64,000 nt of DNA, taken from contig NZ_KB899406.1 of assembly GCF_000378205.1 (NCBI RefSeq), positions 310,001 to 374,000 on the forward strand. Reading direction: 5' to 3'. Under the pieces are notes generated by a model, which saw only the letters and a program-made list of their open reading frames with translations, was not told the origin of the DNA and did no database searches. This stretch comes from Sediminispirochaeta bajacaliforniensis DSM 16054 (lineage in GTDB: Bacteria; Spirochaetota; Spirochaetia; DSM-16054; Sediminispirochaetaceae). Positions within the stretch are counted from its first letter, which is position 1, and each line of letters starts with the position of its first letter. This document shows, in pieces, positions 17,645 through 36,387 of the stretch. Made by a program: the position numbers and the translations under genes.

Positions 17645-17690
17645 TTGACATATAGAATATCGGTGTTAGTATATGATATATAAAAATAAA
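17645..17690 (+). promoter_or_regulatory. Promoter and AT-rich operator before the dctP relic
   Basis: TTGACA (17645-17650) and a TAGTAT -10 (17667-17672, spacer 16) are overlapped by the palindrome TATATGATATA centred at 17675. The region closely matches the one before the intact dctP copy (25469-25507), including the GGTGTTA motif and the AAAGGAGCAAGA ribosome site. It probably still drives dctQ, dctM and the dehydrogenase gene. Confidence 0.7.
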
Positions 17691-17701
17691 AGGAGCAAGA
17701 T

Positions 17702-17934
17702 ATGCGTAAGCTTATTATGGTGTTTGTGGCGACTGCGCTGGGGTTTGCCAACGGCAAGCGGAGGTAACGATGAAAATCCAGCACAACCTGCCCACAACGC
17801 AGGTGATACTCGGGCTATTGAAGGAGCCATGGAAGGCAAAGATGGGTCCGGTGTACGCGTCGGTGGAGAAGCTGATAAGCAGCCAGGCCTGGGCCAAGCT
17901 GCATGAAGGAGCCGATGCGATCAGGGAGAAGTGA
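17702..17934 (+). pseudogene. Internally deleted dctP (TRAP solute-binding protein) relic
   Basis: The start, signal-peptide codons, a short block around QHNLPTTQ, and the last 36 or so codons (from MGPVYASVEKL to the TGA) match the intact dctP at 25526-26572 almost base for base. About 80% of the gene between them is gone. Two of the junctions fall at short repeats present in the intact copy: ACGCAGG (25670 and 26360) and TGAAGGAG (26382 and 26457). The remainder is out of frame, so no binding protein is made. It occupies the usual binding-protein place before dctQ and dctM. Upstream signals are intact. Confidence 0.9.
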
Positions 17935-17994
17935 GCAGCATGGTGATGGGCCTGCGGCCCCTCCCATGGATATCATTGCAAAATAGGAATCTAT

Positions 17995-18540
17995 ATGAAG
18001 AAACTATCAAGCCTTTTAGGAAACCTGGATTATTTCATTCAGCCAATTCTCATGATCATATTGTTGGCCGCGGCTTTGTTGCAGGTCTTGTACAGGTTTG
18101 TTCCTTTCGTCCATACCCCATGGACCCTGGAATTGATAACTTATCTGTTCAGTGCTTCCGTATGGCTGGGGATAAGTATTGCAGTCAAGGAGAACAGTCA
18201 TGTCGGTATCCTGGCGGTCTACAGCAGGTTCCCGAGGAAGATCAGGATTTTCTTCAAGATATGCAACTATGGCATCTTTGCTGCGATGATGCTTGTCTTT
18301 GCCTTCCTTGGATTGCAGGCACTTGTCGGATACTGGCGAACTGAAAACATTTCTCCCGCCCTGCATGCCCCGTATTGGTTGCTCCGCAGTCCGATAGCCA
18401 TAGGTGGAATTTACTCGGTCTATAGGATTGTTCAGCAGATAGCGGCAATTATCAGGCATACGGATCCGGAATTCTTCGATACCCAGAGCAAGCCCGTGGA
18501 TCCTTCTGTGTATTGTGATCAGGTTGGAGGGATAGAGTGA
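17995..18540 (+). CDS. dctQ: TRAP transporter small permease (DctQ)
   Basis: The 181-residue protein has four hydrophobic segments and the family landmarks of DctQ: a second helix reading LITYLFSASVWLGISIAVKENSHVG and a third helix region around IFAAMMLVFAFLGLQAL. It forms the small membrane subunit of a tripartite ATP-independent periplasmic transporter, which imports acids or sugar acids using a sodium gradient. Its stop overlaps the start of dctM (TGATG). The binding-protein gene that should precede it is the deleted relic, so function depends on the intact dctP at 25.5 kb. Confidence 0.9.
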   Translation: MKKLSSLLGNLDYFIQPILMIILLAAALLQVLYRFVPFVHTPWTLELITYLFSASVWLGISIAVKENSHVGILAVYSRFPRKIRIFFKICNYGIFAAMMLVFAFLGLQALVGYWRTENISPALHAPYWLLRSPIAIGGIYSVYRIVQQIAAIIRHTDPEFFDTQSKPVDPSVYCDQVGGIE

Positions 18541-19826
18541 TGCCAATAATGAGCATCTCGGTTTGCTTGGGAGCTTTGATCCTGATCGTGATCGGAGCTC
18601 CGGTCTTGGTAGCCATCGGTTTCTCCAGCATCATGGTACTCTGTTGCTTCCATCCTGTGCCGTTCATTTCCATTCCCCAGTTGATGTTTTCCGGTATGGA
18701 ATCCTATACATTGGTCGCGATTCCCCTGTTTGTCCTGGCAGGTGTCCTGATGGAATCCTGCGGCGTTGCAAGAAATATCATTGCGTTCTGCAAGGCTCTC
18801 GTCGGATGGGCCCGCGGTGGTTTGGGTGCGGTCAATGTCGTATCAAGCTTCATTTTCGGAGGTATTTCAGGTTCTTCAGTCGCCGATACTGTATCGATAG
18901 GGGCCATTATGATTCCTGAGATGATCGATGATGGCTATGACAGGAACTACTCCGCAGGTATCACCGTCATTTCCTCGACGCTGGCTGTCGTCGTCCCCCC
19001 TAGCATCCTTATGATAGTCCTTGGAGGCGTCGCTGAGGTTTCTGTGTCAAGGTTGTTGATCGGCGGTCTTGTTCCTGGCGCCTTGATGGCTGTCACCATG
19101 ATGATTCAGAACTACTACATTGCCAGGAAACACCATTATGGGAGTGTAGCCAAGTTTTCCCTTAGGTCCCTTTGGTCGACGTTTAGGATTGGTTTTTTTG
19201 CCTTGGGTGCACCTCTGATCATCATCCTCGGAATCATGACCGGGATCGTCACGCCAACGGAATCAGGAGCCTTAGCGGTATTCTATACCTTGGTGGTCTC
19301 CAAGTTCTGTTATCATAGCTTGTCATGGGATGTACTGAGGAGGGCGTTCGTCGAAGGTGCTAAGATGACGGCAGCGGTCGTGGCGATCATTGCTTCTTCA
19401 TCGATCTTTACGTTCATCATGACCTTCGAAGGATTGCCGCAGATAGTAGCAGGGGCCTTGATGAAGCTTTCTACGAATCCGATTGTGATTCTTCTGCTCA
19501 TAGATGTGTTCCTGCTTTTCGTGGGCATGCTGATCGATGCCAGTGTTGCGATAATCATACTGAGCCCGATCTTGTATCCGGTCATCCTCAATCTTGGCAT
19601 CGATCCGGTGTATTTCGGGGTATTGTTCGTCCTCAACCTTGCAATTGGGCTGGTCACGCCACCCTTCGGTGTGTGTCTGTTCAGCGTCTGCAATGTCGGT
19701 GACATCAGCATGGAAGACTTGCTCAAGGGATCCCTGTCTCTCTACGGTTCCCTGTTCGGGACCTTGTTGCTGGTGACCTTGTTTCCGCAGATAGTCCTAT
19801 GGCTGCCCCAGGTCTTGTTTGGCTGA
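18540..19826 (+). CDS. dctM: TRAP transporter large permease (DctM)
   Basis: The start at ATG 18540 overlaps the dctQ stop; a GTG one codon earlier is also open. The 428-residue protein has about 12 membrane helices and the DctM signatures GGISGSSVADTVSIGAIMIP (about 100-120) and PPSILMIVLG (about 155), plus ILSPILYPV and VTPPFGVCLF in the C-terminal half. It is the channel subunit that accepts substrate from the periplasmic binding protein and couples import to sodium. It is followed 31 bases later by a dehydrogenase gene, probably in the same transcript. Confidence 0.92.
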   Translation: MPIMSISVCLGALILIVIGAPVLVAIGFSSIMVLCCFHPVPFISIPQLMFSGMESYTLVAIPLFVLAGVLMESCGVARNIIAFCKALVGWARGGLGAVNVVSSFIFGGISGSSVADTVSIGAIMIPEMIDDGYDRNYSAGITVISSTLAVVVPPSILMIVLGGVAEVSVSRLLIGGLVPGALMAVTMMIQNYYIARKHHYGSVAKFSLRSLWSTFRIGFFALGAPLIIILGIMTGIVTPTESGALAVFYTLVVSKFCYHSLSWDVLRRAFVEGAKMTAAVVAIIASSSIFTFIMTFEGLPQIVAGALMKLSTNPIVILLLIDVFLLFVGMLIDASVAIIILSPILYPVILNLGIDPVYFGVLFVLNLAIGLVTPPFGVCLFSVCNVGDISMEDLLKGSLSLYGSLFGTLLLVTLFPQIVLWLPQVLFG

Positions 19827-19857: not shown

Positions 19858-20892
19858 ATGAAAGGTTTAGTGAAGTATGCTGCCGAACCCGGTAACATGG
19901 AAGTAAGGGAAGTTGCAGAACCGGTGGTGAAGCCCGATTTCGTCAAGATTGAAGTGATGTCCAGCGGCATCTGCGGTTCTGACCTGCATATTCTGCACAG
20001 CGATATCGCCATCCCTGTCCGTCCCCCGGTCATCACAGGCCATGAGTTCAGCGGGGTAGTCGTCGAAGTCGGAGACGGTGTTTCCAACTGCAAGGTCGGT
20101 GACCGTATTTCGTCGGAGACTGCATACGGTTACTGCGGTACCTGCGAGAACTGCAAGAACGGACGCTATAATCTGTGTGACCATAGATTGACTCTTGGCT
20201 ATTGGTTCAACGGGGCCTTTGCGGAGTATACCATGGTCCCCGCTGACAGAATCCATAAACTTGCGGACAATGTGTCTTTCAAGGAAGGGGCCTTGCTGGA
20301 ACCTTTGGCCTGTGTCTGCCATGCGACTATTGATCTGGCACGGATCAAGGCTGGTGACATCGTCTTGGTATCGGGACCTGGGGCTATCGGGCTTATGACC
20401 CTGCAGGTGGCCAAGGCTCACGGTGCCACGGTCATCGTGTCAGGGACGGATATCGATGTGGAGCGTCTCGGCATCGCGCAGAAGCTCGGGGCAGACCTCG
20501 TCGTCAACGTCTCAAGGGAGAAACTGTTGGATCTGGTAGGTGACCTGACCGACGGCAGAGGTGTCGATGTCGTATTTGAATGTTCCGGATCCGCCCCAGG
20601 GACAAGAACGGGCCTTGAGGCTGTGAAGAAGTATGGACAATTTGTCCAGATCGGTTTGGCGGGCAAACCCTTTGAAGTCGATTTCCCAAGGATCTGCTAC
20701 AAGGAAATCAAGGTGACGGGATCCTTGGGATCCATATGGTCTTCATGGGACAGTGCCATACGTCTGGTTTCCACCGGTAAGGTTAACCTCAAAGCATTAG
20801 CCACCCATGAGTTCAAGCTGGAGGATTGGGAAGAGGCCTTCAGGACCTTTGAAGAGAAGAAGGGGTTGAAGATACTCATCAAGACTCATTGA
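19858..20892 (+). CDS. Zinc-dependent medium-chain dehydrogenase (polyol/threonine dehydrogenase type)
   Basis: The 344-residue protein is a zinc MDR oxidoreductase. The catalytic zinc ligands are Cys39 (GICGSDLH), His62-Glu63 (GHEFSG) and Glu148 (EPLACVCHA). The structural-zinc cysteines are Cys93, Cys96, Cys99 and Cys107 (CGTCENCKNGRYNLC). The NAD-binding loop is GPGAIGLMTLQVAKA. Relatives oxidise sorbitol, L-iditol, threonine, galactitol or sugar acids. Its position directly after the TRAP permeases suggests it acts on the imported compound or an early intermediate. A rho-independent terminator follows. Confidence 0.88.
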   Translation: MKGLVKYAAEPGNMEVREVAEPVVKPDFVKIEVMSSGICGSDLHILHSDIAIPVRPPVITGHEFSGVVVEVGDGVSNCKVGDRISSETAYGYCGTCENCKNGRYNLCDHRLTLGYWFNGAFAEYTMVPADRIHKLADNVSFKEGALLEPLACVCHATIDLARIKAGDIVLVSGPGAIGLMTLQVAKAHGATVIVSGTDIDVERLGIAQKLGADLVVNVSREKLLDLVGDLTDGRGVDVVFECSGSAPGTRTGLEAVKKYGQFVQIGLAGKPFEVDFPRICYKEIKVTGSLGSIWSSWDSAIRLVSTGKVNLKALATHEFKLEDWEEAFRTFEEKKGLKILIKTH

Positions 20893-21022: not shown

Positions 21023-22387
21023 ATGCCGGCAAGATGGTTGAGAATAGAGGAAATGAGCAAGAAGTTTCGGAATGAAGAATTTGATAGAGACGGTGTGGTC
21101 TTCGGTATGTTGAAGGATGTGCCTTTGCCAAGGATGGCCTTGGTCAAGCAGCATTTTGATGCTTCACATCTTGAAGACATACCGACCGAGATGGCGAAGC
21201 AGTTCGACAAGGCGGGCATCGGGAACCGTATACATCCGGGCATGTCCGTCGCCATCACTGTAGGTTCCAGAGGATTGGCGAACATCCCATTGATCGTGAA
21301 GGAAATAGTACGCAACGTAAAGCGGCTGGGCGGAAAACCGTTTATCGTTCCTGCGATGGGGTCCCATGGCGGTGCCACGGCGGAAGGACAACGGAGCATA
21401 GTGGAAGGCTTGGGCGTCACGGAATCCTTCGTCGATGCACCGATTAGGGCGACGATGGAAACGGTTCCTGTCGGCATCTCCCCCGATGGAAAGGAAGTTC
21501 GGATAGACGCCAATGCCGCCGTAGCCGATGGAATTATCGTCCTTGGACGGGTAAAGCCTCATACAGCTTTCAGGGGAAAGTATGAAAGCGGCCTTTTCAA
21601 GATGATGGCAATCGGATTGGGAAAGCAGCAAGGGGCACAGATATGCCATGATCAGGGATTCGGCATGATGGCGCACAATGTGGAACAGTTCGGGAATACG
21701 ATATTGCAGTCTGTGCCGATCTTGTTTGGAATCGCGATCGTCGAGAATGCCTTTGATGAAACGGCGTTGATAGAAGCTGTCCCGAAGGAGGCGATTCCCG
21801 CCCGTGAACCTGAACTGCTTGAGACTGCAAGATCCTTGATGGCCAGGATAGGGTTCAAGGATATCGATATAATGGTCATCGACAAGATCGGTAAGAACTA
21901 TAGTGGAGACGGTATGGATCCGAACATCACTGCTTCCTATAGTACGCCATATGCCTCGGGCGGTCCTAATGTACAAAGGTATGTCGTCCTTGATCTGAGC
22001 GAAGAAACCCACGGTAATGCCTTGGGGGCCGGGCAGGCTGACTTCGTCACGAAGAGGTTGTTCAACAAGCTGGACTTCGATGCCGCATATCCGAATGCAT
22101 TGACATGCACCGTCGTATCCGGAGTACGGGTTCCGTTGATCCTCAATACCGACCGCCTTGCATTACAGGCTGCGGTATTTACTTGCGTAGGCATAGATAA
22201 GCGTTTCCCGAGGATCGTTAGGATCGCCAATTCCTCGCATGTAGATGCGATATCTGTTTCCGAAGCGCTTCGCGATGAAGTACGTGCAAGCGATGGACTG
22301 GAATTCCTTTCCGATTTCAAGCCTTTTTGCTTCGATGAAGAAGGCAACCTTGACTTGAGTGCCGAAGACTATGCCGCCGGCTTATGA
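21023..22387 (+). CDS. LarA-superfamily (DUF2088) protein of unknown substrate
   Basis: The 454-residue protein (or 444 if it starts at the ATG at 21053; neither start has a well-spaced ribosome site) belongs to the DUF2088/LarA-like group: VPAMGSHGGATAEGQ near 115 and GRVKPHTAFRGKYESGLFK near 185. It lacks the GxGARKSVLPG lysine loop that carries the nickel-pincer cofactor in true lactate racemase, so it is a distant paralog of the next gene rather than a second racemase of the same kind. Such proteins are often found in sugar-acid catabolic clusters. Adjacent to a full LarA, it may form a pair acting on the same hydroxy acid. Confidence 0.7.
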   Translation: MPARWLRIEEMSKKFRNEEFDRDGVVFGMLKDVPLPRMALVKQHFDASHLEDIPTEMAKQFDKAGIGNRIHPGMSVAITVGSRGLANIPLIVKEIVRNVKRLGGKPFIVPAMGSHGGATAEGQRSIVEGLGVTESFVDAPIRATMETVPVGISPDGKEVRIDANAAVADGIIVLGRVKPHTAFRGKYESGLFKMMAIGLGKQQGAQICHDQGFGMMAHNVEQFGNTILQSVPILFGIAIVENAFDETALIEAVPKEAIPAREPELLETARSLMARIGFKDIDIMVIDKIGKNYSGDGMDPNITASYSTPYASGGPNVQRYVVLDLSEETHGNALGAGQADFVTKRLFNKLDFDAAYPNALTCTVVSGVRVPLILNTDRLALQAAVFTCVGIDKRFPRIVRIANSSHVDAISVSEALRDEVRASDGLEFLSDFKPFCFDEEGNLDLSAEDYAAGL

Positions 22388-22447
22388 TCCGCCCAGGATC
22401 GACTGCTGTAGTGGATATCCCGATGGGGAATCATGGAGGGAGCGCGT

Positions 22448-23722
22448 ATGATCATTGAGTTTCCTTATGGAAAGGAATCATTGAAACTGGATGTTGGAGA
22501 AGAGCGACTGCAGGGAATCCTGTTGTCCAAGCTGCATGGTTATGAAGCGGCCATGAGGCAGGAAGAATTGGTGGAAAACGCTTTGCGGCATCCCGTCGGG
22601 AGCCCCGGGCTTTCGTCGTTGGCCGACGGGAAAAAGAAGGTTGTGCTCATCGCCAGTGACCATACGCGTCCTGTTCCCAGCAAGCTGATGGTTCCTGCTA
22701 TGCTTCGTGATATACGGGAGGGGAATCCTGATGCCGAAATTACCATCCTTATCGCAACCGGCTGTCATAGAGGGACGACGGAGGATGAACTCATCAGTAA
22801 ATTCGGTTCCGACATCGTCCGAAATGAACATATCTGCATCCATGATTGTGATGACCGGCTAAATATGGTCAAGATAGGTACATTGCCGAGCGGCGGTGAA
22901 TGTTTCATCAACCGCATAGCCGTTGAAGCGGACCTGCTTGTTTCCGAAGGGTTCATCGAACCTCATTTCTTTGCAGGTTTCTCAGGTGCCCGTAAGAGTG
23001 TCCTTCCCGGGGTCGCGAGCCGGGAAACCGTTCTGGCGAACCATTGTTCTGAATTCATCACGCATCCCAAGGCCAGGACAGGCATCCTTGAAGGAAATCC
23101 CATACACAGGGATATGGTCTGGGCTGCAAGGAAGGCCGGCTTGGCATTTATCTTGAACGTGGTCATCAATTCCCGTAAGGAAATCATCCATGCCGTCGCG
23201 GGGGACATGGAGGAATCCCATGTGCAAGGTTGCCGTTTCCTCGACGGTCTGTGTCGCGTTGAGGCACGTCCTGCGGATATCGTCATCTCGACCAATGGAG
23301 GATATCCCCTCGATCAGAATATCTATCAGGCGGTCAAGGGCATGACTGCAGCCGAAGTGACGGTCAGGAAAGGAGGGGTCATCATAATGGTGTCCAGATC
23401 CGAAGACGGGCATGGCGGCGAAGGATTCTTCCATCAGATGGCTGATGAACCGGATATCTACAGGACCATGGATCTCTTCCTCTCACGTGGGCGGAACGAA
23501 ACGGTCGCAGATCAGTGGCAAACGCAGATATTCATCCGGGTACTTCAGAAAGCCCATGTCATTTTTGTATCGCAGGCACCAGACCGGATGGTCCGTGCAC
23601 TCCATATGATCCCGGCACACTCCCTTCAGGAGGCGATGGCGGAAGCCGAAGCCCTTATCGGTCGTCACCATGCCACGGTCACGGCCATTCCTGATGGCGT
23701 GTCCGTGATAGTTGTCCAGTGA
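22448..23722 (+). CDS. larA: LarA-type nickel-pincer racemase/epimerase
   Basis: GGAGGGAGCGCGT before the ATG at 22448 fixes the start (424 residues). Each active-site residue known from Lactobacillus lactate racemase is present, one position earlier: Arg74 (DHTRP), His107, His173, Lys183 (GARKSVLPG), His199, Gln294, Lys297 and Trp357. Lys183 would hold the nickel-pincer nucleotide covalently. The family interconverts the C2 configuration of alpha-hydroxy acids; relatives act on lactate, malate, gluconate and other acids. In this island an aldonate-like epimerase is more likely than a lactate racemase. The cofactor genes larB, larC and larE are not in the window. Confidence 0.85.
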   Translation: MIIEFPYGKESLKLDVGEERLQGILLSKLHGYEAAMRQEELVENALRHPVGSPGLSSLADGKKKVVLIASDHTRPVPSKLMVPAMLRDIREGNPDAEITILIATGCHRGTTEDELISKFGSDIVRNEHICIHDCDDRLNMVKIGTLPSGGECFINRIAVEADLLVSEGFIEPHFFAGFSGARKSVLPGVASRETVLANHCSEFITHPKARTGILEGNPIHRDMVWAARKAGLAFILNVVINSRKEIIHAVAGDMEESHVQGCRFLDGLCRVEARPADIVISTNGGYPLDQNIYQAVKGMTAAEVTVRKGGVIIMVSRSEDGHGGEGFFHQMADEPDIYRTMDLFLSRGRNETVADQWQTQIFIRVLQKAHVIFVSQAPDRMVRALHMIPAHSLQEAMAEAEALIGRHHATVTAIPDGVSVIVVQ

Positions 23723-23793: not shown

Positions 23794-24507
23794 TCAATGG
23801 GTGTGCATCGACTGGGAGATCTTTGAATCTTCCTGCTTTTCATCCCAGAAGATATCAAGTCCCTGCAGGGTGATGTTCTTGCTGGTTGCCATGTGCTTCT
23901 CTATTGCATGGCTTGTCTTTTTTGAATCGTGGAGCCGCAGGGCGGCGATTAGGGCCATATGTTCGTTGAAGGTCTTATCGATGATGTCCTGGGAATAGTT
24001 TGTGACGAATATCCAGCGTCTGATGAGCCAGTCCTGTTCCTGCAGGGGGCGGAGGATGTCCCGCAACCTTGGATTGTCTGCGCATCGTCGCACGGTGTTG
24101 TGGATGAGCATGTCGGCTTCGATGAATTCGTCGATGGATTGGTTCCTTGTGTTCTTGCATTTGTCGACATACTGCTTTTCCATCTCATCGATTTCTTCAT
24201 CGGTCATGGCAACGGCAGCCAACTGGAATGCCAGGTTCTCCAAAGTGCTTCTGATGAGACTTATATCCAGGACATCCTTCTTTGTAGGGTTGAAGACCGA
24301 ATAGCTTTTCCCGTCATAGGTTACTAAGCCTTCGAACACGAGATTACGCAAGCCTTCCCTGACCGGAGTCATGCTTACATTGATTTCCTTTGCCAGGGGC
24401 TCGACGATTAGCCTGTCTCCGGGCCGGAATTCCAAAGATACTATTTTTGATTTGATTATCTGGGCCACCTGCTCGTTCAAGTTTACCTTTGTGATTCCCA
24501 TTATCAT
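23794..24507 (-). CDS. GntR-family (FCD) regulator, paralog 1
   Basis: The ATG at 24507 is preceded by GAGGAG; longer TTG starts are unlikely. The 237-residue protein has a winged helix-turn-helix (KEINVSMTPVREGLRNLVFE) and an FCD domain. It is clearly a paralog of the regulator at 27622: both read LEF(R/K)PG(D/T)RLIVE, KEINVSMTP, YDGKSYSVFNP and WLIR(R/S)WIF at matching places. Its own promoter carries the AT-rich palindrome found before other genes of the island, which suggests autoregulation. It converges with the larA gene. The effector is probably an intermediate of the pathway. Confidence 0.88.
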   Translation of the reverse strand: MIMGITKVNLNEQVAQIIKSKIVSLEFRPGDRLIVEPLAKEINVSMTPVREGLRNLVFEGLVTYDGKSYSVFNPTKKDVLDISLIRSTLENLAFQLAAVAMTDEEIDEMEKQYVDKCKNTRNQSIDEFIEADMLIHNTVRRCADNPRLRDILRPLQEQDWLIRRWIFVTNYSQDIIDKTFNEHMALIAALRLHDSKKTSHAIEKHMATSKNITLQGLDIFWDEKQEDSKISQSMHTH

Positions 24508-24550
24508 GTATGCACTCCTCTGATTTACTATGAAAAACAACAAATCATAT

Positions 24551-24578
24551 TTTATATATTATATACTCTAACTGACAA
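24551..24578 (-). promoter_or_regulatory. Promoter and AT-rich operator of GntR paralog 1
   Basis: On the minus strand, TTGTCA (24578-24573) and TATAAA (24556-24551) are 16 bases apart. The 13-base palindrome TATATATTATATA (24553-24565) overlaps the -10. It matches the island-wide operator pattern. Confidence 0.6.
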
Positions 24579-25460: not shown

Positions 25461-25468
25461 AATCATGC

Positions 25469-25507
25469 TTGACATATGAAATACCGGTGTTAATATATCA
25501 TATATTA
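25469..25507 (+). promoter_or_regulatory. dctP promoter with 17-base palindromic operator
   Basis: TTGACA (25469-25474) and TAATAT (25491-25496) are spaced by 16 bases. TAATATATCATATATTA (25491-25507) is a perfect palindrome covering the -10 and start region, the best example of the island operator. AAAGGAG follows before the ATG. Confidence 0.75.
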
Positions 25508-25525
25508 AAATGAAAGGAGCAAGAC

Positions 25526-26660: not shown

Positions 26661-26735
26661 TGTTTACCGGGTCTGTTTCCATATGTTTGAAAATTGAAAT
26701 TGACATCTTCCGTTTTTGGTAGTACGGTTTAAATA

Positions 26736-26776
26736 TAATATATGAGATTTTGAAATATAAATTTAATATATTAAAT
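26736..26776 (+). promoter_or_regulatory. AT-rich palindromes before the SDR gene
   Basis: Two elements resemble the island operator: TATAATATATG at about 26736-26745, and the perfect 16-base palindrome ATTTAATATATTAAAT at 26761-26776, which lies 20 bases before the start codon. A TTGACA at 26700-26705 has no well-spaced -10, so the exact promoter is unclear. Confidence 0.5.
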
Positions 26777-26795
26777 AAACAAAAAGGAAATGAAG

Positions 26796-28391: not shown

Positions 28392-28476
28392 AAATATTAA
28401 ATATAGTATTCGACAATAGTATATTTAATATTTGACAATAGTACTGTTTGAGGTTAGCATCTTATATATGATATAT
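28392..28476 (+). promoter_or_regulatory. Inverted repeat, promoter and operator before the transketolase genes
   Basis: A long inverted repeat with 14-base arms (28392-28405 and 28420-28433) lies just upstream of TTGACA (28432-28437), which has TAGCAT 17 bases further on (28455-28460). A 13-base palindrome ATATATGATATAT (28464-28476) covers the likely start point and matches the island operator. The segment GACAATAGTA occurs twice (28412 and 28434). Confidence 0.7.
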
Positions 28477-28518: not shown

Positions 28519-29409
28519 ATGGGAAGTAAAATCAAGGAGCTGCTTGCAGATCCCAATCGTAGATTTTCCCCCGCGGAACTTGCTGCCTTGGCCGCCTGGT
28601 TTCGGATGGAAATGTTTGATGTGCTTCATCAACGGGGCACAGGTCACTGGGGAGGATCAGCCTCCAGCGCGGAATTGACAACTGCATTGTATTTCAACCG
28701 AATGAACATCAGGCCTGATAAACCTGATTGGGAGGATCGGGATCGATTTGTCCTGAGCAAAGGACATGCTTCCGTGAATCTATATACCGTGCTTGCCAGC
28801 AGAGGATATTTTCCTATCGAGGAACTGCCTGCGTTCAGGACTCTCGGTTCCCGGCTCCAGGGGCACCCCTGCATGGCCAAGCTGTGTGGAGTCGACATGT
28901 CCACAGGAGCTTTGGGACATGGAATCTCGGTCGGTCTCGGCATGGCCTTGGCGGCACAGTTGAGTGGCAGGAAGTATTGGACGTATGTGATGACCGGAGA
29001 AGGCTGCCTTGATGAAGGCCAGAGTTGGGAGGCCTTGTTGATGGCCGCAAAATACCGGCCGGAGCGCTTTGTCCTGATGGTCGACTACAACAAGGTTCAG
29101 CTTGACGGTACCCAGGATGAAATATTGCCGCTTGGACCGCTTGTGGACAAGTTCAGGGCTTTCGGCTGGAACGTATGTCCCCTCAGCCTGGACGGGAATG
29201 ATACCGTGGACATCTGCAGGTCCTTCGACTGGTTGGACAGCGATGAAATATGGCCCAAAGTCGTCATATATGACACGGTCAAGGGCAAAGGAGTCTCCTT
29301 TTCCGAAGGCAAGAACACCTGGCATGGTGCTAAGATAACCGATGAAGCCTTTGAAAAGGGTAAGCCGGAACTAATGGAAGACATAAGGAAGAAGGAGGCT
29401 GTGCTATGA
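28519..29409 (+). CDS. Transketolase, N-terminal (thiamine-binding) subunit
   Basis: The 296-residue protein matches the first third of transketolase: GHWGGSASSAELTTALYF, DRFVLSKGHAS, GVDMSTGALGHGISVGLGMA, and the thiamine diphosphate/Mg motif MTGEGCLDEGQSWEA...DYNKVQLDG. The first motif residue is GEG rather than the more usual GDG. The pyrimidine-binding and C-terminal parts are supplied by the next gene, whose start overlaps this stop (ATGA). Two-subunit transketolases move a C2 ketol unit between sugars. In catabolic islands they often act on unusual ketoses rather than in the pentose phosphate pathway. Confidence 0.92.
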   Translation: MGSKIKELLADPNRRFSPAELAALAAWFRMEMFDVLHQRGTGHWGGSASSAELTTALYFNRMNIRPDKPDWEDRDRFVLSKGHASVNLYTVLASRGYFPIEELPAFRTLGSRLQGHPCMAKLCGVDMSTGALGHGISVGLGMALAAQLSGRKYWTYVMTGEGCLDEGQSWEALLMAAKYRPERFVLMVDYNKVQLDGTQDEILPLGPLVDKFRAFGWNVCPLSLDGNDTVDICRSFDWLDSDEIWPKVVIYDTVKGKGVSFSEGKNTWHGAKITDEAFEKGKPELMEDIRKKEAVL

Positions 29410-30350
29410 ACTTGGCTATGAGAGATGCTTTCGGCAGGAAGCTGGAAAGCCTGGGGGCGACCCACCCTGAATTGGTGGTATTGGATGCAGATGTCTCGTC
29501 TTCAACGAAGAGTACCTATTTTGCCAAGGCCTTTCCCAATCGTTTTTTCAACTGTGGTGTCGCGGAAGGGAACCTTTGCGGAGTCGCATCCGGCCTTGCT
29601 GCATCGGGATATCATCCTGTCGTCAATGCCTTTGCGATTTTCCTGGCACTCAAGGGAGCCGATCAGATAAGGAACGACGCCTGCTACAACAAGCTGCCGA
29701 TCATATATGCCGGAGCCTATGGTGGTCTGTCTGATTCCTTCGACGGTGCGAGCCATCAATCCATCACGGACATTGCCATCATGCGGGCGTTCCCCAACAT
29801 GGAGGTGATAGTCCCTAGTGATGCGACCCAGGCTGGACAGGCCCTTGAGTATGCATTGGGTGTACAGGGGCCCGTATACATACGGCTCAACCGAAACGAG
29901 ATGCCGGACCTTCCCGTATCCGATGACTTCGAGACAGGAAAGGTGATCCGGATCCGTTCAGGTTCGGATGTCACGATCGCTGCGAACGGAATCACGGCAT
30001 CTTTTGCCAATGAGGCTGCAGGTTTGCTTGCGTCAAGGGGCATTGAAGCCGAAGTCCTTTCCGTGCCGTTCGTAAAGCCGTTGGATGCCAAGGGACTTGA
30101 AGAAAGCGTCGCCAGGACAGGCCGGCTGATCACCGTGGAGGAGCACAACCTCATGGGTGGCTTCTATGGTGCTGTATGCGAGAAGTTTGCCCGTGACGGG
30201 GTCTGCTGCGACATGGATGCCGTCGGCCTCGAGGATGTCTTCACGGAAACCGGTGACTATATCGATCTGCTTGCAAAGTACGGGATCAGCGCCGAGGCCA
30301 TTGCCTCGAAGGCAGAAAAGCTGATCGGCAGGCATGAAGAAAGGAGATGA
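29406..30350 (+). CDS. Transketolase, C-terminal subunit
   Basis: The 314-residue protein supplies the pyrimidine-binding domain (VLDADVSSSTKS, FFNCGVAEGNLCGVASGLAASG with the catalytic Glu of VAEGN) and the C-terminal domain (SDVTIAANGITA, LITVEEHNLMGGFYGAV). With the upstream subunit it completes one transketolase. The stop is 5 bases before the iron-type alcohol dehydrogenase start, so the three genes form one operon. The pairing suggests that the aldehyde left or formed by the transketolase reaction is reduced by that dehydrogenase. Confidence 0.92.
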   Translation: MNLAMRDAFGRKLESLGATHPELVVLDADVSSSTKSTYFAKAFPNRFFNCGVAEGNLCGVASGLAASGYHPVVNAFAIFLALKGADQIRNDACYNKLPIIYAGAYGGLSDSFDGASHQSITDIAIMRAFPNMEVIVPSDATQAGQALEYALGVQGPVYIRLNRNEMPDLPVSDDFETGKVIRIRSGSDVTIAANGITASFANEAAGLLASRGIEAEVLSVPFVKPLDAKGLEESVARTGRLITVEEHNLMGGFYGAVCEKFARDGVCCDMDAVGLEDVFTETGDYIDLLAKYGISAEAIASKAEKLIGRHEERR

Positions 30351-30354
30351 TGAA

Positions 30355-31635
30355 ATGGATTACAAGAAAAAAGCGTATGAACTGCTCAAGGAGTGGAAAG
30401 GTGACGACTATATCTTCGGGCTGGGTGTGCTGGATCAGGTAGGGCGGATCGCTTTAGACTATGGCAAGACGGCCTTGGTCGTCTGCAACCAGACCTATAT
30501 GATGCCCGTTCTGGAACGTGTCCTCGGATACCTGAATGCTTCCGGGGTCAAGCTTGCAGGAGAGTCTGTGGCTCCCGATGCAAAGCCCAATGCTCCGAGA
30601 GAAGATGTCTATCGGTTGGTGACCTATATCCTCCAGTACAAGCCTGACTCGATCATCGCCGTTGGCGGTGGATCGACGATCGATGCCTGCAAATGCGCAA
30701 GCGCCCTTGCGACGTTCGGAGCTTCGGTGACTCCCGAGGTCGATCATTACTTCGGAACCGGAATCGTGACCGAGGGACTATCAAATACAGGCAAGCAGCT
30801 CGTTCCGGTCATCGCCGTGCAGACCTCCGCTTCGTCGGGAGCCCACCTGACCAAGTATTCGAACATAACCGATCCCGTAGCCGGTCAGAAGAAGCTCATC
30901 GTAGATCCTGCCATTGTGCCTGCCACCAGCATCTTTGACTATGAAGTGACGGCGACGATGCCGATCAAGGTTACCATTGACGGAGCCCTGGATGCCATAG
31001 CTCATACCTTCGAGGTGTATTGTGGTGCAAAGGGCGACAAGCTGGAACTATGTCGGGATCTGGCGGTCACGGCGATTTCCTTGTGTGCGGAGAATGCAAG
31101 AACCTTGGTTAAAGATCCGAAGAACCTCGAGGCGAGGGAAGCCATCGGACTTGCCACCGACCTGGGTGGCTATGCAATCATGGTAGGAGGTACCAGCGGA
31201 GCCCATCTTACAAGCTTTTCATTGGTCGATATCGTCGGGCATGGTACTGCTTGCGGCATCATGAATCCTTACTATGCTGTATTCTACTCCAAGGCCATCC
31301 AGCCTCAGCTGAAGGTCGTAGGTGATATATTCAGGACATATGGCTATGCCGATGCTTCCATCGGTACCCTTGAAGGTCGGGCTTTGGCGGAAGCCGTCGC
31401 ACGGGCAATGATCGCCTATGGAAAGAGCATCGATGCCCCGACGAAGCTCGATGAGCTGGATGGGTTCGGAGAGAAGCACATCCAGAGGGCCTTGAAAGCC
31501 GCAAAAGATCCCCAGCTTAAGATGAAACTGCAGAATATGCCGGTACCGATGACCGCGGATGATGTCGATTCATACATGGAGCCGATCCTACGTGCAGCTG
31601 TCGGCGGTGATCTTTCCATCATCAAGGAAATGTAG
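30355..31635 (+). CDS. Iron-type (group III) alcohol dehydrogenase
   Basis: AAAGGAG sets the ATG at 30355 (426 residues); an ATG seven codons earlier lies inside the previous gene without a site. The fold is the Fe-ADH type: nucleotide loop AVGGGSTIDACKCAS, and metal ligands in DGALDAIAHTFEVY (Asp, His) and in GAHLTSFSLVDIVGHGTACG (two His). Family members interconvert aldehydes and alcohols with NAD(P)H and Fe2+, for example lactaldehyde, glycolaldehyde, succinic semialdehyde or sulfoacetaldehyde reductases. Being in one operon with the split transketolase, it probably reduces a short aldehyde made in this pathway and recycles NADH. Confidence 0.9.
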   Translation: MDYKKKAYELLKEWKGDDYIFGLGVLDQVGRIALDYGKTALVVCNQTYMMPVLERVLGYLNASGVKLAGESVAPDAKPNAPREDVYRLVTYILQYKPDSIIAVGGGSTIDACKCASALATFGASVTPEVDHYFGTGIVTEGLSNTGKQLVPVIAVQTSASSGAHLTKYSNITDPVAGQKKLIVDPAIVPATSIFDYEVTATMPIKVTIDGALDAIAHTFEVYCGAKGDKLELCRDLAVTAISLCAENARTLVKDPKNLEAREAIGLATDLGGYAIMVGGTSGAHLTSFSLVDIVGHGTACGIMNPYYAVFYSKAIQPQLKVVGDIFRTYGYADASIGTLEGRALAEAVARAMIAYGKSIDAPTKLDELDGFGEKHIQRALKAAKDPQLKMKLQNMPVPMTADDVDSYMEPILRAAVGGDLSIIKEM

Positions 31636-31644
31636 TCAGCGATG

Positions 31645-31803: not shown

Positions 31804-33327
31804 ATGGAAAAGGTAATATTGGAAGCCCTTGGGATTTCCAAGCTGTTCTCCGGCGTAGTCGCATTGCAGGATGTCAATTTTACCCTCATGGAAGGCGACG
31901 TGCACGCCTTGATGGGAGAAAACGGCGCCGGTAAGTCGACCCTTTCGAAGATAATCGCAGGAATTCTTAGAAGCAACGGGGGCAAGTTGTCGGTCAGAGG
32001 TGAGGAATGTAGCTTTTGCTCAACCATCGAAGCCAGGTGGAAAGGGATAGCCATCGTGACTCAAGAATTCAGCTTGTTGCCTGATTTCTCGATCGCCGAA
32101 AACATCTTCATCACCAACCCTGCATACTATAAACATGCTTTCCTCAAGAACCGTTCGAAGATGTTGAAGGATACCGTCGCCTTGCTGAAACTATTCAACA
32201 TGCAGAATTCTCTCAAGCCGTATACAAAGGTAAATACGCTGTCTGTCGCCCAGTGTCAGGTCATCGAGATACTGAAGGCTGTTTCCTCCGGTGCAGAAAT
32301 CATCATACTCGACGAGCCTACGGCTTCATTGTCCAGCAAGGAAATCGACCAATTGTTCGAATTGATCCTGACCTTGAAAGGACGGGGTATGTCCTTCATC
32401 ATCGTATCGCATAAGATACAAGAAATCTATGCGATATCGGATCGCATCACCGTACTGCGCGACGGTCGCGGGATACTGGATGGTGTAAGGACCTGTGAAC
32501 TTGGACAGAAGGAGTTGATCAAGGCTATGGTCGGCAGGGAGGTCAATGATCTGTATGGTTCCGGTCTACGGCGCCGTTGTCAAGATGTCAACTTCCAGTC
32601 CAGCGAAATCGTGTTTGAAGCGAAAGATGTCTCGGCTGCCGGAGGTCGGGTCCGTCATGCATCCTTCAAACTGTGCAAAGGCCAGATCGTTGGTTTTTCC
32701 GGACTGATAGGGGCAGGACGGTCCGAGTTCATGCGGAGTATCTTCGGTGCGGACAGACGTATTTCAGGAGAAGTGTTCCTTCATGGGAAGAAACTTGATC
32801 GGGTTTCCATCAGGAAGATGATGTGTTCCGGAATTGCCTATGTATCGGAGGACCGGAAGCAGGAAGGATTAGTTCAGAACATGAATGTAGTTAGGAACAT
32901 CAATCTTGCTAAACTCGTCTGCACGCCTGGTTTCCTGCTAAACAGGAAGCGGGAAGATGAGGATTGTTCCCAGATGATCAGGAAATTCAACATCAAGGTT
33001 CCTGGATTCGATGCCCTGGTGAAGACCCTTTCAGGAGGAAACCAGCAGAAGGTCCTGCTGGGAAAATGGATGCTCATCGATCCGGAAGTTCTTATCGTCG
33101 ATGAACCTACCAGGGGCATCGATATAGGAGCCAAGGCCGATATCTATGCGATTCTACGTGAGTTGGCGGGACAGGGAATTTCCATCGTCATGATTTCTTC
33201 TGAAATTCCGGAGATCCTCGGAATATGTGATTATGTCTATATCATGCGTGAGGGACGGCTGACCGGTGCATTCCCCGTTGAGGAACTGGACGAAGAAAAG
33301 ATCGGATATTATTCGACGTTAGGTTAG
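31804..33327 (+). CDS. Sugar-type ABC transporter ATPase (RbsA/XylG type)
   Basis: The 507-residue protein has two fused nucleotide-binding domains. The first has Walker A GENGAGKST (about 38-46), a QEFSLLPDFS Q-loop and Walker B IIILDEPTASL. The second has the degenerate Walker A GLIGAGRSEF, signature LSGGNQQKVLLGKWM and Walker B LIVDEPTRGID. This duplicated form energises importers for ribose, xylose, rhamnose, autoinducer-2 and related sugars. The permease follows 17 bases later. The binding protein is encoded convergently at 35349-36326. Confidence 0.93.
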   Translation: MEKVILEALGISKLFSGVVALQDVNFTLMEGDVHALMGENGAGKSTLSKIIAGILRSNGGKLSVRGEECSFCSTIEARWKGIAIVTQEFSLLPDFSIAENIFITNPAYYKHAFLKNRSKMLKDTVALLKLFNMQNSLKPYTKVNTLSVAQCQVIEILKAVSSGAEIIILDEPTASLSSKEIDQLFELILTLKGRGMSFIIVSHKIQEIYAISDRITVLRDGRGILDGVRTCELGQKELIKAMVGREVNDLYGSGLRRRCQDVNFQSSEIVFEAKDVSAAGGRVRHASFKLCKGQIVGFSGLIGAGRSEFMRSIFGADRRISGEVFLHGKKLDRVSIRKMMCSGIAYVSEDRKQEGLVQNMNVVRNINLAKLVCTPGFLLNRKREDEDCSQMIRKFNIKVPGFDALVKTLSGGNQQKVLLGKWMLIDPEVLIVDEPTRGIDIGAKADIYAILRELAGQGISIVMISSEIPEILGICDYVYIMREGRLTGAFPVEELDEEKIGYYSTLG

Positions 33328-33344: not shown

Positions 33345-34313
33345 ATGCTGGTGTCAAGAATTCGCAGCAGCAGGTTGGGGCAGGAATACAAATCAGAGTT
33401 GACAATGTTTTTTATTTTCATTGTTTTCTTTATTGCCATGAGCTTTGCCTCGCCTTATTTCTTTACGAAAAACAATATACTTAATGTGATGAGTCAGGTT
33501 TCGGTAAACTCCATGTTGGCGATAGGCATGACGATCGTCATCATTACAGCTGGAATCGACTTGTCGGTCGGGGCGATTCTTGGATTATCCGGCATGGTCG
33601 GTGGAATGGTGCTGATGAACACCCACAACATCATGCTTGGCGTCTTAGTCATCCTATGTATTTCCGTGGTGGTCGGTGTCGTTAATGGTTTTTTGATCGG
33701 ATACCTCAGTATGCCGGCATTCATCGTTACATTGGGGATCATGGAGATCTGCAGGAGCCTGGATTATGTGATATCCGATGCCAATACGGCTTCTAAGTTT
33801 CCTTCCGGCTTTGCTTTCCTGGGCAAGAGTAAGGTGTTCGGCAGCCTGCCCTTTTATGTCATCTTCATCATCGTGATGTTTCTGTTTTTCTCATGGTTGC
33901 TGTCAAGGACCAAGTTCGGTCGTTTCCTCTATGCGATCGGTTCCAATGCAGAGGCTGCTAGACTTACGGGTATAAACATCAAGTTCAACGTCATGATGGC
34001 CTATGTGGTTTCCGGATTAATGTGCGGGTTCGGCGCTTGGATGATGACTTCTCGCCTGATGGCATGCGACCCGACCTATGGGGTAGGTAATGAAATGGAT
34101 GCAATCGCCGCCGCGGTCATAGGCGGGACTTCCATGAGCGGCGGAAAAGGAACCATGGCTGGAACCTTCATCGGTGTTCTGCTTGTCGGTTTCCTGCGCA
34201 ATGCACTCAATATCTTGGGCGTCAATCCTTTTTGGCAGGGAACGGTAATAGGTACTGTGATAATCGTGGCTGTTATGGCTGAGCAACTTTCCAAGTTGAA
34301 TCATCGCAGCTGA
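33345..34313 (+). CDS. Sugar-type ABC transporter permease (RbsC type)
   Basis: The 322-residue membrane protein has 8 to 10 helices. Landmarks are GMTIVIITAGIDLSVGAILGLSGM (about 63-86), AFIVTLGIMEICRSL and AIGSNAEAARLTGINIKFN, which includes the coupling loop, then AIAAAVIGGTSMSGGKGTMAGT. These are diagnostic of the ribose/xylose-type permease. It forms the homodimeric channel for the preceding ATPase. A terminator follows 32 bases after the stop. Confidence 0.92.
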   Translation: MLVSRIRSSRLGQEYKSELTMFFIFIVFFIAMSFASPYFFTKNNILNVMSQVSVNSMLAIGMTIVIITAGIDLSVGAILGLSGMVGGMVLMNTHNIMLGVLVILCISVVVGVVNGFLIGYLSMPAFIVTLGIMEICRSLDYVISDANTASKFPSGFAFLGKSKVFGSLPFYVIFIIVMFLFFSWLLSRTKFGRFLYAIGSNAEAARLTGINIKFNVMMAYVVSGLMCGFGAWMMTSRLMACDPTYGVGNEMDAIAAAVIGGTSMSGGKGTMAGTFIGVLLVGFLRNALNILGVNPFWQGTVIGTVIIVAVMAEQLSKLNHRS

Positions 34314-34615: not shown

Positions 34616-34681
34616 GGATATATTATTCCGATTCGTCGGATAAGCCCATGGGCTTGTGCTGTGAATGCGAGAGAGGGATCC

Positions 34682-35356
34682 TCAGATGATACCTACTGCC
34701 CGTACCGGAGCTCCGGAGAAATGCCGCCATTTCAGCGGAAGAGCCATGAAGAAACAACTTTCGGCTTCCATCAATTCGTCCGGGAAATATATTTCTTCCA
34801 CCGCCCATATATCATGGGAGAGCAACACTTCATGTGCGGGCCGGCCTGTGCCTTCATACCATCCGCCGATACTCATGCAATCTATGCCGACTCCCTTGAT
34901 GTGCTTGGCGACGAACAATTCGGAAATTTCTGCCGTCAAATAAGGCCAGTCATGGTGGTAGATTTCTTCGAATCCCCGCATATGGGACCATCCGGTGTTG
35001 ATCAAGATGATGTCATCCTTACTAATGTTCCCAATGTAGCGTTCAATATGCGAAGGTGATATTCCTTCTTTCAGCTTGATGGCCCCCCTCAGGTCGACGA
35101 GCAGTGCATGTCCCATGAAATTCCCGATAGGAATTTCATCGATTGTTCTTCCGGAGGGGAAAAAGTGGAACGGGGCATCCATGTGTGTGCCCGTATGACT
35201 ATTCAGACGGATCTGTTCTGCCTGGAATCCGTCCTTCTCGTGCTCTGCTTCCAGCCTTACGATCGTTGGTTCATATGTCGGCCAGCCGGGGCAATGGTCG
35301 TATACCGGCTGGGACATATCAAAGCATTTTCTGTCGTCTAAGTTGATGTCATTCAT
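34682..35356 (-). CDS. Cyclase-family metal hydrolase (kynurenine formamidase-like fold)
   Basis: The 224-residue protein carries the HTGTHMDAPFHF motif (about 54-65) of the cyclase/KynB/isatin hydrolase family, where the two His and the Asp bind Mn or Zn. DMSQPVYDHCPGWP near the start is also typical. Its start overlaps the stop of the binding-protein gene by 8 bases (translational coupling). Family members hydrolyse amide, lactam or ester/lactone bonds. In a sugar-acid island a lactone or cyclic amide opened after import is plausible, but the substrate cannot be named. Confidence 0.82.
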   Translation of the reverse strand: MNDINLDDRKCFDMSQPVYDHCPGWPTYEPTIVRLEAEHEKDGFQAEQIRLNSHTGTHMDAPFHFFPSGRTIDEIPIGNFMGHALLVDLRGAIKLKEGISPSHIERYIGNISKDDIILINTGWSHMRGFEEIYHHDWPYLTAEISELFVAKHIKGVGIDCMSIGGWYEGTGRPAHEVLLSHDIWAVEEIYFPDELMEAESCFFMALPLKWRHFSGAPVRAVGII

Positions 35357-36326
35357 CTGTCAAGGCGACTTCTTTGAGCGTTGTATAGATCGACCCGATG
35401 TTGTCTTGGGTCACCAGCAGGGTGTTCATCTTAATTTCTTTTTCAACTGTTTCTCCTTGTAGGATCTTGTCGATGCAATCGGCGGCCTTGCGTCCCATGA
35501 GCACAGGTTGTTGAGCGGCCGTTGCAAGCATGCGTCCGTCTTGGATCGCTTCTACGACATCAGGAGAACAGTCGAATCCTACGACCATTACGTCTGTACG
35601 ACCTGCGGATTCCAGGGCCGAGCAACATCCCATCGAAGGATCTTCCGAGTGGCAGAAAATTGCCTTGAGTTCGGGATGGGCTGTGATGAGGTCCTGCGTA
35701 TAGGTTTCACCTTCCTGTCTGTTGACCTTCTCCATCTGTTTGAAGCCAACGTCGACGGCACCGACCGTTGCGATTCCTTCGTTGAATCCTTCCTTTCTCA
35801 ATACTCCGTTGATCCTTGCTTGGTTCAAGGCTATTTGGGCCACTTCATCTCCTTTCTTCAGTTTCATAGCTACGTATTCGCCCAATTCCTTTGCTCCGGC
35901 CTTGTTGTTCGTCGAGATGAAGGCTGCATAGGTTCCTCCATCGGTGCCGATATCGCAAATAACCACGGGAATCCCTGCATCTTCAGCTAATTCTAGTACA
36001 TTTGTACATGATGCGCTGTCGGTCGGTGATACGATAATTGCATCCACTTGCTTCGTGATGGCATCCTGGACGTTCGAGGACTGCGTGTTTGCGCTGTTCT
36101 TTGAATCATAAGTCACTACAGAAGAATTCGCATTGAGTATCTTGACCTCGGATTCGATGCCATGTCGTATATATCGCCAGAACGGTACGTCTAGTGATGG
36201 AGTGATATAGGCGACGTTGTATCCACCGACCTTTGTTCCGCCGACTGTCACTTCCTGCTGCCCGTTTGCAAAGAGACTTGCTCCAAGGATGAGTCCCATG
36301 CTGATGAGACACGTAACCTTTTTCAT
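35349..36326 (-). CDS. Sugar-type ABC solute-binding protein (RbsB type)
   Basis: TGGAGG before the ATG at 36326 fixes the start (325 residues); an upstream in-frame start is not needed. A signal peptide ends around LFANGQQEV. The mature protein is a periplasmic-binding type-1 fold: AYITPSLDVPFWRYIRHGIE, DAIIVSPTDS, PVVICDIGTDGG, LKAIFCHSEDPSMG, VMVVGFDCSPDVVEAIQDG. It is the likely partner of the convergent RbsA/RbsC-type genes. Its promoter carries the island operator, so the importer and the enzymes are probably induced together. Confidence 0.9.
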   Translation of the reverse strand: MKKVTCLISMGLILGASLFANGQQEVTVGGTKVGGYNVAYITPSLDVPFWRYIRHGIESEVKILNANSSVVTYDSKNSANTQSSNVQDAITKQVDAIIVSPTDSASCTNVLELAEDAGIPVVICDIGTDGGTYAAFISTNNKAGAKELGEYVAMKLKKGDEVAQIALNQARINGVLRKEGFNEGIATVGAVDVGFKQMEKVNRQEGETYTQDLITAHPELKAIFCHSEDPSMGCCSALESAGRTDVMVVGFDCSPDVVEAIQDGRMLATAAQQPVLMGRKAADCIDKILQGETVEKEIKMNTLLVTQDNIGSIYTTLKEVALTDE

Positions 36327-36347
36327 AGAAACCTCCAATGTTTAACG

Positions 36348-36387
36348 ATTATATATAATATTTTAACACTGGTATACTAAATGTCAA
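36348..36387 (-). promoter_or_regulatory. Promoter and AT-rich operator before the RbsB-type gene
   Basis: On the minus strand, TTGACA (36387-36382) and TAAAAT (36365-36360) are 16 bases apart. They are followed by the perfect 12-base palindrome ATTATATATAAT (36348-36359). The GTGTTA just before the -10 is shared with the two dctP promoters. Confidence 0.7.

Follow-up and report, generated by a model that had tools for sequence, protein, structure and literature searches.

A split-transketolase island in Sediminispirochaeta bajacaliforniensis with a possible role in sugar-acid breakdown

Background

What is a split transketolase doing among nickel-pincer racemase genes and sugar importers? 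The question is raised by 16 genes lying between positions 17995 and 36338 of a 64,000-nucleotide stretch of the Sediminispirochaeta bajacaliforniensis DSM 16054 genome (contig NZ_KB899406.1, positions 310,001 to 374,000). This stretch is here called the window, and its numbering is used throughout. The 16 genes, which we call the island, encode two importers, several dehydrogenases, two nickel-pincer proteins, a two-subunit transketolase (TK) and an iron-type alcohol dehydrogenase (Fe-ADH). We consider it about an even bet that the island serves to take up a sugar acid and break it down with a transketolase whose donor is a keto acid without phosphate.

A first-pass annotation of the window had listed these families, from the TRAP (tripartite ATP-independent periplasmic) and Rbs importers to a cyclase-family hydrolase, and all of them were recovered by family models. 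It had also guessed at one catabolic unit that imports a sugar acid, oxidises it to a keto acid, lets the transketolase move a C2 unit and reduces the resulting aldehyde with the Fe-ADH, an outline to which the comparisons below lend conditional support. If it is true, transketolase would serve carboxylated sugars in a non-phosphorylated route, a counterpart to sulfoglycolysis. Some nickel-pincer racemases would gain a purpose, the racemisation of glycerate by a nickel enzyme would gain a pathway, and one residue may predict transketolase donors. Two orphan families, an Fe-ADH subfamily and the group-22 isomerases, would gain roles in spirochaetes.

Results

Gene content and layout

The source genome comprises 4.57 Mb in 75 contigs, and the open reading frames of the island were scanned against family models. 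The genes apparently form six transcription units: DctQ-DctM-MDR-group-22 isomerase-LarA, headed by a shrunken copy of dctP; the divergent GntR1; DctP; SDR-GntR2; the two TK halves (TKn-TKc) with Fe-ADH, RbsA and RbsC; and, on the opposite strand, RbsB-cyclase. MDR and SDR are medium-chain and short-chain dehydrogenases/reductases, and NPN is the nickel-pincer nucleotide. The enzyme substrates named in the list are those that we infer from sequence and context.

17995..18540, + strand: DctQ, TRAP small permease (PF04290, 2e-19)
18537..19826, + strand: DctM, TRAP large permease (TIGR00786, 412 bits)
19858..20892, + strand: zinc MDR, predicted aldonate dehydrogenase acting on C4 of a pentonate (71% identity to L061, 69% to L059)
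21023..22387, + strand: group-22 nickel-pincer isomerase (LarAH22), predicted aldonate C2-epimerase (NF052515, 530 bits, cut-off 400)
22433..23722, + strand: LarA, predicted glycerate racemase (NF033504, 626 bits, cut-off 460)
23794..24543, - strand: GntR/FCD regulator 1 (PF00392, PF07729)
25526..26572, + strand: DctP, TRAP solute-binding protein (PF03480, 3.7e-60; 68% identity to L061)
26790..27548, + strand: SDR dehydrogenase (PF13561; 75% identity to L059, 73% to L115)
27622..28353, + strand: GntR/FCD regulator 2 (PF00392, PF07729)
28519..29409, + strand: transketolase N half (PF00456; GHWGG motif in 16/16 aligned)
29406..30350, + strand: transketolase C half with RSFYR head-group motif (PF02779, PF02780)
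30334..31635, + strand: Fe-ADH of a separate subfamily, predicted to reduce tartronate semialdehyde to L-glycerate (PF00465)
31804..33327, + strand: Rbs-type ABC transporter ATPase (family scan)
33345..34313, + strand: Rbs-type ABC transporter permease (family scan)
34682..35356, - strand: PF04199 cyclase-family hydrolase, at a guess a lactonase (family scan)
35349..36338, - strand: Rbs-type periplasmic sugar-binding protein (RbsB-type; nearest solved structures are ribose-binding proteins)

The names of the nearest relatives of the TRAP binding protein give no ligand. The MDR scores 235 bits on the IolM model (cut-off 450) and 145 bits on that of L-idonate 5-dehydrogenase (cut-off 469). An inositol pathway was set aside for the island, given the score under the IolM cut-off and the absence of any other iol gene among the 16.

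The transketolase

A profile search of 392 Spirochaetota genomes found the window's TK family at 19 places in 16 genomes at 452 bits or more; the next best match scored 365. Only the best few candidates per genome were scored in such searches (five for TK, four for Fe-ADH), so all genome-search counts are lower bounds. An Fe-ADH gene adjoins 13 of the 19, and the neighbourhoods of the other six were read too. By its sequence and its recurring partners the window TK is a member of a separate subfamily. Among solved structures, the C. hydrogenoformans split TK is the nearest to it. In all 16 Fe-ADH-linked TKs aligned the catalytic His and Glu residues and the thiamine diphosphate domains are kept, and the motif GHPG has become GHWG.

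At the position of the phosphate-orienting His, H461 of E. coli TktA, all 22 family members aligned have Tyr, with R358, R520 and D469 kept (TktA numbering, checked by eye against PDB alignments). D469 of transketolases reads the D-threo configuration, and its retention suggests a D-threo donor. Of the 22, 20 have RSFYR at the five head-group positions, one has RAFYR and one RGFYR, where the second position may be one column off relative to long TKs. Among more distant TKs the Tyr is kept at L174 (RNFYR) and L175 (RSFYR), and L057 has Ser. Other TK-domain proteins of the same genome read RPFHR (twice) and RAFDR (once), that at L053 is unlike any, and two further ones stand outside this tabulation. 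His stands at the position in question in the full-length TK-like protein C33 and in a further split TK. Section 3.4 of PMC11659671 ascribes RSFHR to TKs that act on phosphates and RAFDR to the sulfofructose TK. A passage of PMC12016104 describes TktA R358I/H461S/R520Q, engineered for 5-ketogluconate, a keto-acid donor. The window TK lacks RSFHR, its His being replaced by Tyr, and taken with this literature the replacement means that its donor end has probably changed.

Could this nevertheless be an ordinary pentose-phosphate transketolase that lies beside dehydrogenases by chance? All catalytic residues are kept, as that would demand. The His carried by C33 and by that further split TK, the absence of the island from the same place in the sister genome (see below) and the recurring partners of the subfamily already largely contradict it, and we give it next to no weight. 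The first-pass annotation had itself named a purely pentose-phosphate role as one outcome that would undo its guess; the other TKs of the genome and the changed phosphate motif point away from such a role.

As a side observation, the RAFDR protein, a split TK without D469, lies in an inositol cluster, beside iolB-like, iolD and iolE genes (L055, G000:C7:24001-42000, positions 7146-15008).

The iron-type alcohol dehydrogenase and its partners

The Fe-ADH was found at 20 places in 18 of the 392 genomes (E up to 1e-130), and all 20 neighbourhoods were read. The TK pair adjoins it in 13. At 12 a LarA or LarA-like protein (LarX) is in view, a count that includes the window with its LarA at a distance of 7 kb. 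Five of the seven loci without TK have one or the other. Because the Fe-ADH accompanies LarA or LarX even where TK is missing, the two probably have a single small hydroxy acid in common. An IolO-like protein is present in 9 of the 20 loci.

A wider contig scan with two N-terminal patterns returned seven loci. They include Sphaerochaeta and other Spirochaetales/Spirochaetaceae metagenome-assembled genomes (MAGs) with TKn-TKc-FeADH, LarX (3/4) and an IolO-like or similar TIM-barrel gene, as well as Treponema socranskii and a Lachnospiraceae MAG with LarA-FeADH (61%, 59%). The LarA-Fe-ADH pair thus reaches beyond the spirochaetes. On plasmids the best-ranked Fe-ADH matches were 26-28% identical (best 15 of 1318 records).

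Residues D220, H224, H291 and H303, which we take to be the Asp-His-His-His metal ligands of group III Fe-ADH, are invariant in seven sequences, and the protein matches PF00465. Which aldehyde would it reduce? In G313 the order is glyoxylate-carboligase-like (599 bits, cut-off 791)-FeADH-LarA. In G328 the Fe-ADH stands with a galactarate-dehydratase-like protein (224 bits, cut-off 731), a DapA-like one and one resembling 2-hydroxyacid dehydrogenases. The carboligase and the galactarate route produce tartronate semialdehyde in known organisms. Separately, the LarA that lies beside the Fe-ADH at L126 is broken into two frames (8260-9539).

LarA, the group-22 isomerase and glycerate kinase

The first-pass annotation had taken LarA for a C2-epimerase of aldonates. 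This is less likely, because close LarA relatives share operons with glycerate kinase, and we judge LarA more likely to be a glycerate racemase, with the group-22 protein the better candidate epimerase. When the phylum's 30 top-scoring LarA loci were read 1.5 kb to each side, three had LarA directly next to a glycerate kinase on the same strand (G387, G241 and G269, with LarA 70%, 57% and 58% identical to the window's). The pairs lie at L207 7201-9625, L208 6978-9388 and L209 8018-10433. Around two of them no TK or Fe-ADH was seen, perhaps a stand-alone use of L-glycerate; G387 holds a family TK and Fe-ADH elsewhere in its genome. In G147 a distant TK (356 bits, Tyr kept) is followed directly by a glycerate kinase (429 bits, cut-off 168), the order being GntR, a 305-aa protein, 2-hydroxyacid dehydrogenase-like, PdxA-like, IolO-like, racemase-like, TKn, TKc, kinase.

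LarA has the equivalents of R75, H108, H174, K184 and H200. In 14 Fe-ADH-linked LarA and LarX proteins aligned, the NPN and catalytic residues are kept wherever covered (the L126 piece does not include the R75 region). The positions of LarA1 W358/T359 (numbering checked on 5huq) read W-Q in 13 of these and W-E in one; LarX differs further, with F-M in place of F-F. An extract of PMC11770544 proposes that Q359 explains the activity of LarAH43 on glycerate, and also has E/Q as usual in lactate racemases and LarAH43 using lactate nearly as well as glycerate. W-Q was rejected as a mark of glycerate specificity, being present in 25 of the 30 best LarA matches of the phylum. This control lowers the odds of the glycerate reading and the LarA-kinase pairs raise them; we keep them unchanged.

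The group-22 isomerase has R83, H115, H180, K193 and H209, all invariant in 26 sequences aligned. It has no solved relative by sequence, and its AlphaFold model (mean pLDDT, the predicted local distance difference score, 42; built from two sequences) is too poor for fold comparison. In the LarA literature searched 'Group 22' is not named, and 'glycerate racemase' had no match in the open-licence PubMed Central (PMC) literature. LarE and a split LarC are encoded in the same genome; at L056 (G000:C5, 8023-10376) LarE adjoins LarC, the latter in two frames, presumably the known LarC1/LarC2 arrangement.

The first-pass annotation saw no sugar kinase. Within the island this holds, and glycerate kinases do exist in the genome. 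One lies in the window outside the island:

55581..56726, + strand: glycerate kinase (PF02595, 495 bits)

It is the last gene of a GntR-MBL fold-GntP permease-TPR-kinase cluster. The genome has a second PF02595 glycerate kinase; the DUF4147 glycerate kinase family was not found there. GntR-MBL-GntP genes, without glycerate kinase, occur near the TK operon of G362 (GntP 83%) and about 3.4 kb from that of G387, two genomes of one genus.

A shared palindrome

The regulatory palindrome noticed at first pass is borne out. TATATNATATA has four exact copies in the 64 kb, all upstream of island genes (0.04 expected). With up to two mismatches ATATATNATATAT has 17 sites (2.48 expected), 13 of them inside the island and several overlapping. 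In the whole genome the palindrome occurs at 27 places with up to one mismatch, seven of them in the 18.7-kb island (0.4% of the genome). A reversed control pattern occurs at 25 places, so the palindrome itself is not over-represented and the clustering alone is remarkable.

17670..17680, no strand: palindrome before the TRAP/MDR/LarAH22/LarA operon
24555..24565, no strand: palindrome before GntR1
25494..25504, no strand: palindrome before dctP
26731..26743, no strand: palindrome with one mismatch before SDR-GntR2
28465..28475, no strand: palindrome before the TK/Fe-ADH/Rbs operon
36351..36363, no strand: palindrome with one mismatch before RbsB-cyclase
17644..17965, + strand: degenerate second dctP that retains promoter and operator site (fragments match 25468-26604 at 88-92% identity; without an open reading frame)

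The sites at 17670 and 25494 are not independent, because both descend from one dctP duplication: the shrunken copy heads the TRAP operon, and a separate promoter serves the intact DctP (25526).

Sister genome and relatives

In a sister genome of the same genus (G003, 19.9 kb compared) the flanks are 92-94% identical up to window position 16745 and again from 36958. Nothing between them matches the island; one other gene, of 470 aa, sits there. A search with the Fe-ADH (E up to 1e-130) found nothing in this genome, which carries another group-22 gene elsewhere. The island is not set apart by its guanine-plus-cytosine content, and a search of plasmid DNA found no close relative of it.

The first-pass annotation had proposed to look for the enzyme families together in other genomes, and had named their dispersal into unrelated units among relatives as another outcome that would undo its guess. 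For the core this dispersal did not occur. MDR, TK, Fe-ADH, TRAP and group-22 genes do stand together in T. socranskii (L061), where MDR-TKn-TKc-FeADH-DctP-DctQ-DctM-LarAH22 are eight same-strand genes 59-71% identical to the window's (L061 and L090 are one T. socranskii contig). The Rbs genes and cyclase did not follow: despite sharing the palindrome they are outside the other core operons read, with the exception of a T. socranskii locus (L115) where genes of the Rbs type stand close to SDR, Fe-ADH and TK. In T. socranskii the operon starts with a CdaR-like regulator, and such a regulator also lies next to the Fe-ADH of L120. Other arrangements are DctP-DctQ-DctM-MDR-SDR-IolO-like-SDR-LarAH22 (G330) and, with more distant TKs, TKn-TKc-MDR-GntR-transaldolase-like-LarA (G332) and TKn-TKc-MDR-like-...-LarA (G384, LarA 69%).

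Is the island then one pathway, or two or three catabolic units that share a regulator and a place? Such units would be TRAP/MDR/LarAH22/LarA for a sugar acid, TK/Fe-ADH for something else and Rbs/cyclase for a neutral sugar. They have their own promoters, the Rbs and cyclase genes lie apart from the core in most relatives, and the group-22 isomerase, above cut-off in 26 of the 392 genomes, is mostly found in settings different from the island's. The single gene run in T. socranskii, the adjacency of TK and MDR in G332 and the shared operator speak for one pathway, and we regard separate units as improbable.

Three further associations were noted. A 570-aa transaldolase-like protein recurs beside MDR/LarA or LarAH22 genes (L059 9019-10725; L174 5064-6785). 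Tct-type importers lie beside the TK operon at L088, L115, L116, L118, L125, L169 and L173, accompanied by a PdxA-like dehydrogenase, an Asp/Glu-racemase-like protein or both, which suggests a second entry route, perhaps for hexarates. A DUF362 gene lies on the GntR side of the TK operon (L087 1917-3014; also L091, L114, L117, L123 and L168), and LarX is missing from most of these loci. DUF362 served as the outgroup of the LarA superfamily in the portion of PMC11770544 cited here.

Discussion

A proposed pathway

How might these enzymes work together? The TRAP importer would bring in a sugar acid, most likely a pentonate, and the group-22 enzyme would adjust its configuration at C2. The MDR (or the SDR) would oxidise C4 to give a pent-4-ulosonate, HOCH2-CO-CHOH-CHOH-COO-. 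The split TK would pass the HOCH2-CO- unit on to an aldose phosphate, with xylulose 5-phosphate as one possible product. What is left would be tartronate semialdehyde, which the Fe-ADH would reduce to L-glycerate. LarA would racemise the L-glycerate to D-glycerate for phosphorylation by a glycerate kinase. LarA would be needed because a D-threo pent-4-ulosonate would yield L-glycerate and glycerate kinases use D-glycerate. The D-threo ulosonate would arise when D-arabinonate or L-xylonate is oxidised at C4; candidate substrates of the group-22 enzyme are the corresponding C2 epimers, D-ribonate and L-lyxonate. The least certain part concerns the Rbs transporter, SDR and cyclase, which may bring the corresponding neutral sugar into the pathway, first oxidising it to a lactone and then hydrolysing this. 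Several relatives have, in the position of TRAP and MDR, an importer of the Tct type and a PdxA-like dehydrogenase together with an IolO-like epimerase, and at a guess oxidative decarboxylation of a hexarate could lead to the same keto acid.

Put more generally, this would be a 'carboxy-transketolase' pathway, in which a third head-group class (R-S-F-Y-R) cleaves unphosphorylated keto-aldonates together with a new Fe-ADH subfamily, an NPN-dependent glycerate racemase and interchangeable TRAP/MDR or Tct/PdxA-like entry. We put this fuller version a little short of even.

Several findings weigh against the proposal. R358 and R520, phosphate ligands that were altered in the engineered mutant, are kept in the window TK, so its donor may still be a phosphate; the head-group position varies among split TKs generally; and RAFDR, the motif ascribed to sulfofructose, occurs in the TK beside the iol genes. 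Six of the 19 family TKs do not adjoin Fe-ADH. Eight of the 20 Fe-ADH loci, T. socranskii included, have no LarA or LarX nearby (three of these have a divergent DUF362 gene), and at one MAG locus (L093) the Fe-ADH has neither TK nor LarA with it. Model cut-offs are not reached by the carboligase-like, galactarate-dehydratase-like, PdxA-like and 2-hydroxyacid dehydrogenase-like proteins. W-Q does not separate glycerate from lactate. The window's glycerate kinase is 19 kb from the island and has no palindrome upstream (up to two mismatches). A search for glycerate kinase in the window, L047-L093, L114-L131 and L168-L175 found it only in the window and L175, and none at the family TK and Fe-ADH loci.

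The IolO-like proteins raise a different objection. They match 5-keto-L-gluconate epimerase best (247 bits, cut-off 300; nearest structure TM_0416) and so resemble an enzyme of 5-ketohexonates, which would suit a C6 donor. The pathway could then be one carbon longer: a 5-ketohexonate of the fructuronate, tagaturonate or 5-ketogluconate type would give a tartaric-type C4 semialdehyde, the Fe-ADH would make erythronate or threonate, and the LarA proteins would epimerise the tetronate at C2. The frequency of IolO-like genes at Fe-ADH loci, the transketolase cleavage of 5-ketogluconate published in PMC12016104 (as far as the cited passage goes), and the low MDR score on L-idonate 5-dehydrogenase fit this, as do the PdxA-like genes, which recall tetronate 4-phosphate dehydrogenases and of which one lies near the LarA-glycerate kinase pair of G387. 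It does not account for LarA beside glycerate kinase or for the carboligase-like, galactarate-dehydratase-like and 2-hydroxyacid dehydrogenase-like partners, and no tetronate kinase was found among the proteins scanned, with many neighbouring frames outside the scan. We think the longer route unlikely, and prefer the pentonate route through tartronate semialdehyde.

Comparison with known systems

No description of the island's gene set was found in the open-licence PMC literature searched. The closest described system is the sulfo-TK pathway, with its SqwGH sulfofructose transketolase and SqwF reductase, reported from spirochaetes (sections of PMC11659671 and PMC12890257). As proposed for the island, a split TK there takes C2 off an acidic ketose that bears no phosphate and passes it to a sugar phosphate, and the leftover acidic aldehyde is reduced by a metal-dependent alcohol dehydrogenase. 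Might the island itself be a sulfonate pathway, in which TK cleaves a sulfo-sugar and the Fe-ADH reduces a sulfonated aldehyde? Its head-group motif is RSFYR, not RAFDR, and no sugar isomerase of the SqvD or SqwI type is among the 16 genes, so the island is not a member. The Fe-ADH scores 90 bits on the model of SarD, the one sulfoacetaldehyde reductase compared (cut-off 700), and where sulfo-TK has sulfonate genes the island has nickel-pincer racemases, of which LarA would be unaccounted for. We hold a sulfonate pathway to be highly improbable.

The cleavage of 5-ketogluconate to tartaric semialdehyde (passage of PMC12016104) shares with our proposal a keto-acid donor and a change of the same His. 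That enzyme is an engineered E. coli TK in which two arginines are also changed, whereas the island has a natural subfamily in a catabolic operon. The island LarA agrees with the lactate racemase group (NF033504), whose members act on lactate and glycerate, in scoring above cut-off and in all catalytic and NPN residues. It differs in being tied by context to Fe-ADH, TK and glycerate kinase, whereas the cited portion of PMC11770544 leaves the physiological role open. The group-22 protein likewise is above the NF052515 cut-off, has the NPN and catalytic residues of its group, and differs in standing with MDR and TRAP genes.

AptAB is a split apulose-4-phosphate transketolase of a dedicated catabolic pathway, and its phosphorylated donor is made by a kinase. 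The island resembles it in its catabolic split TK and differs in having no sugar kinase. The E. coli gar and gcl routes, with CdaR-type regulators, lead from tartronate semialdehyde through glycerate to phosphoglycerate; an aldolase or carboligase is the source of the semialdehyde, and GarR or GlxR reduces it. The island would reach the same intermediates by other means, with a transketolase in place of the aldolase or carboligase and Fe-ADH with LarA in place of GarR or GlxR.

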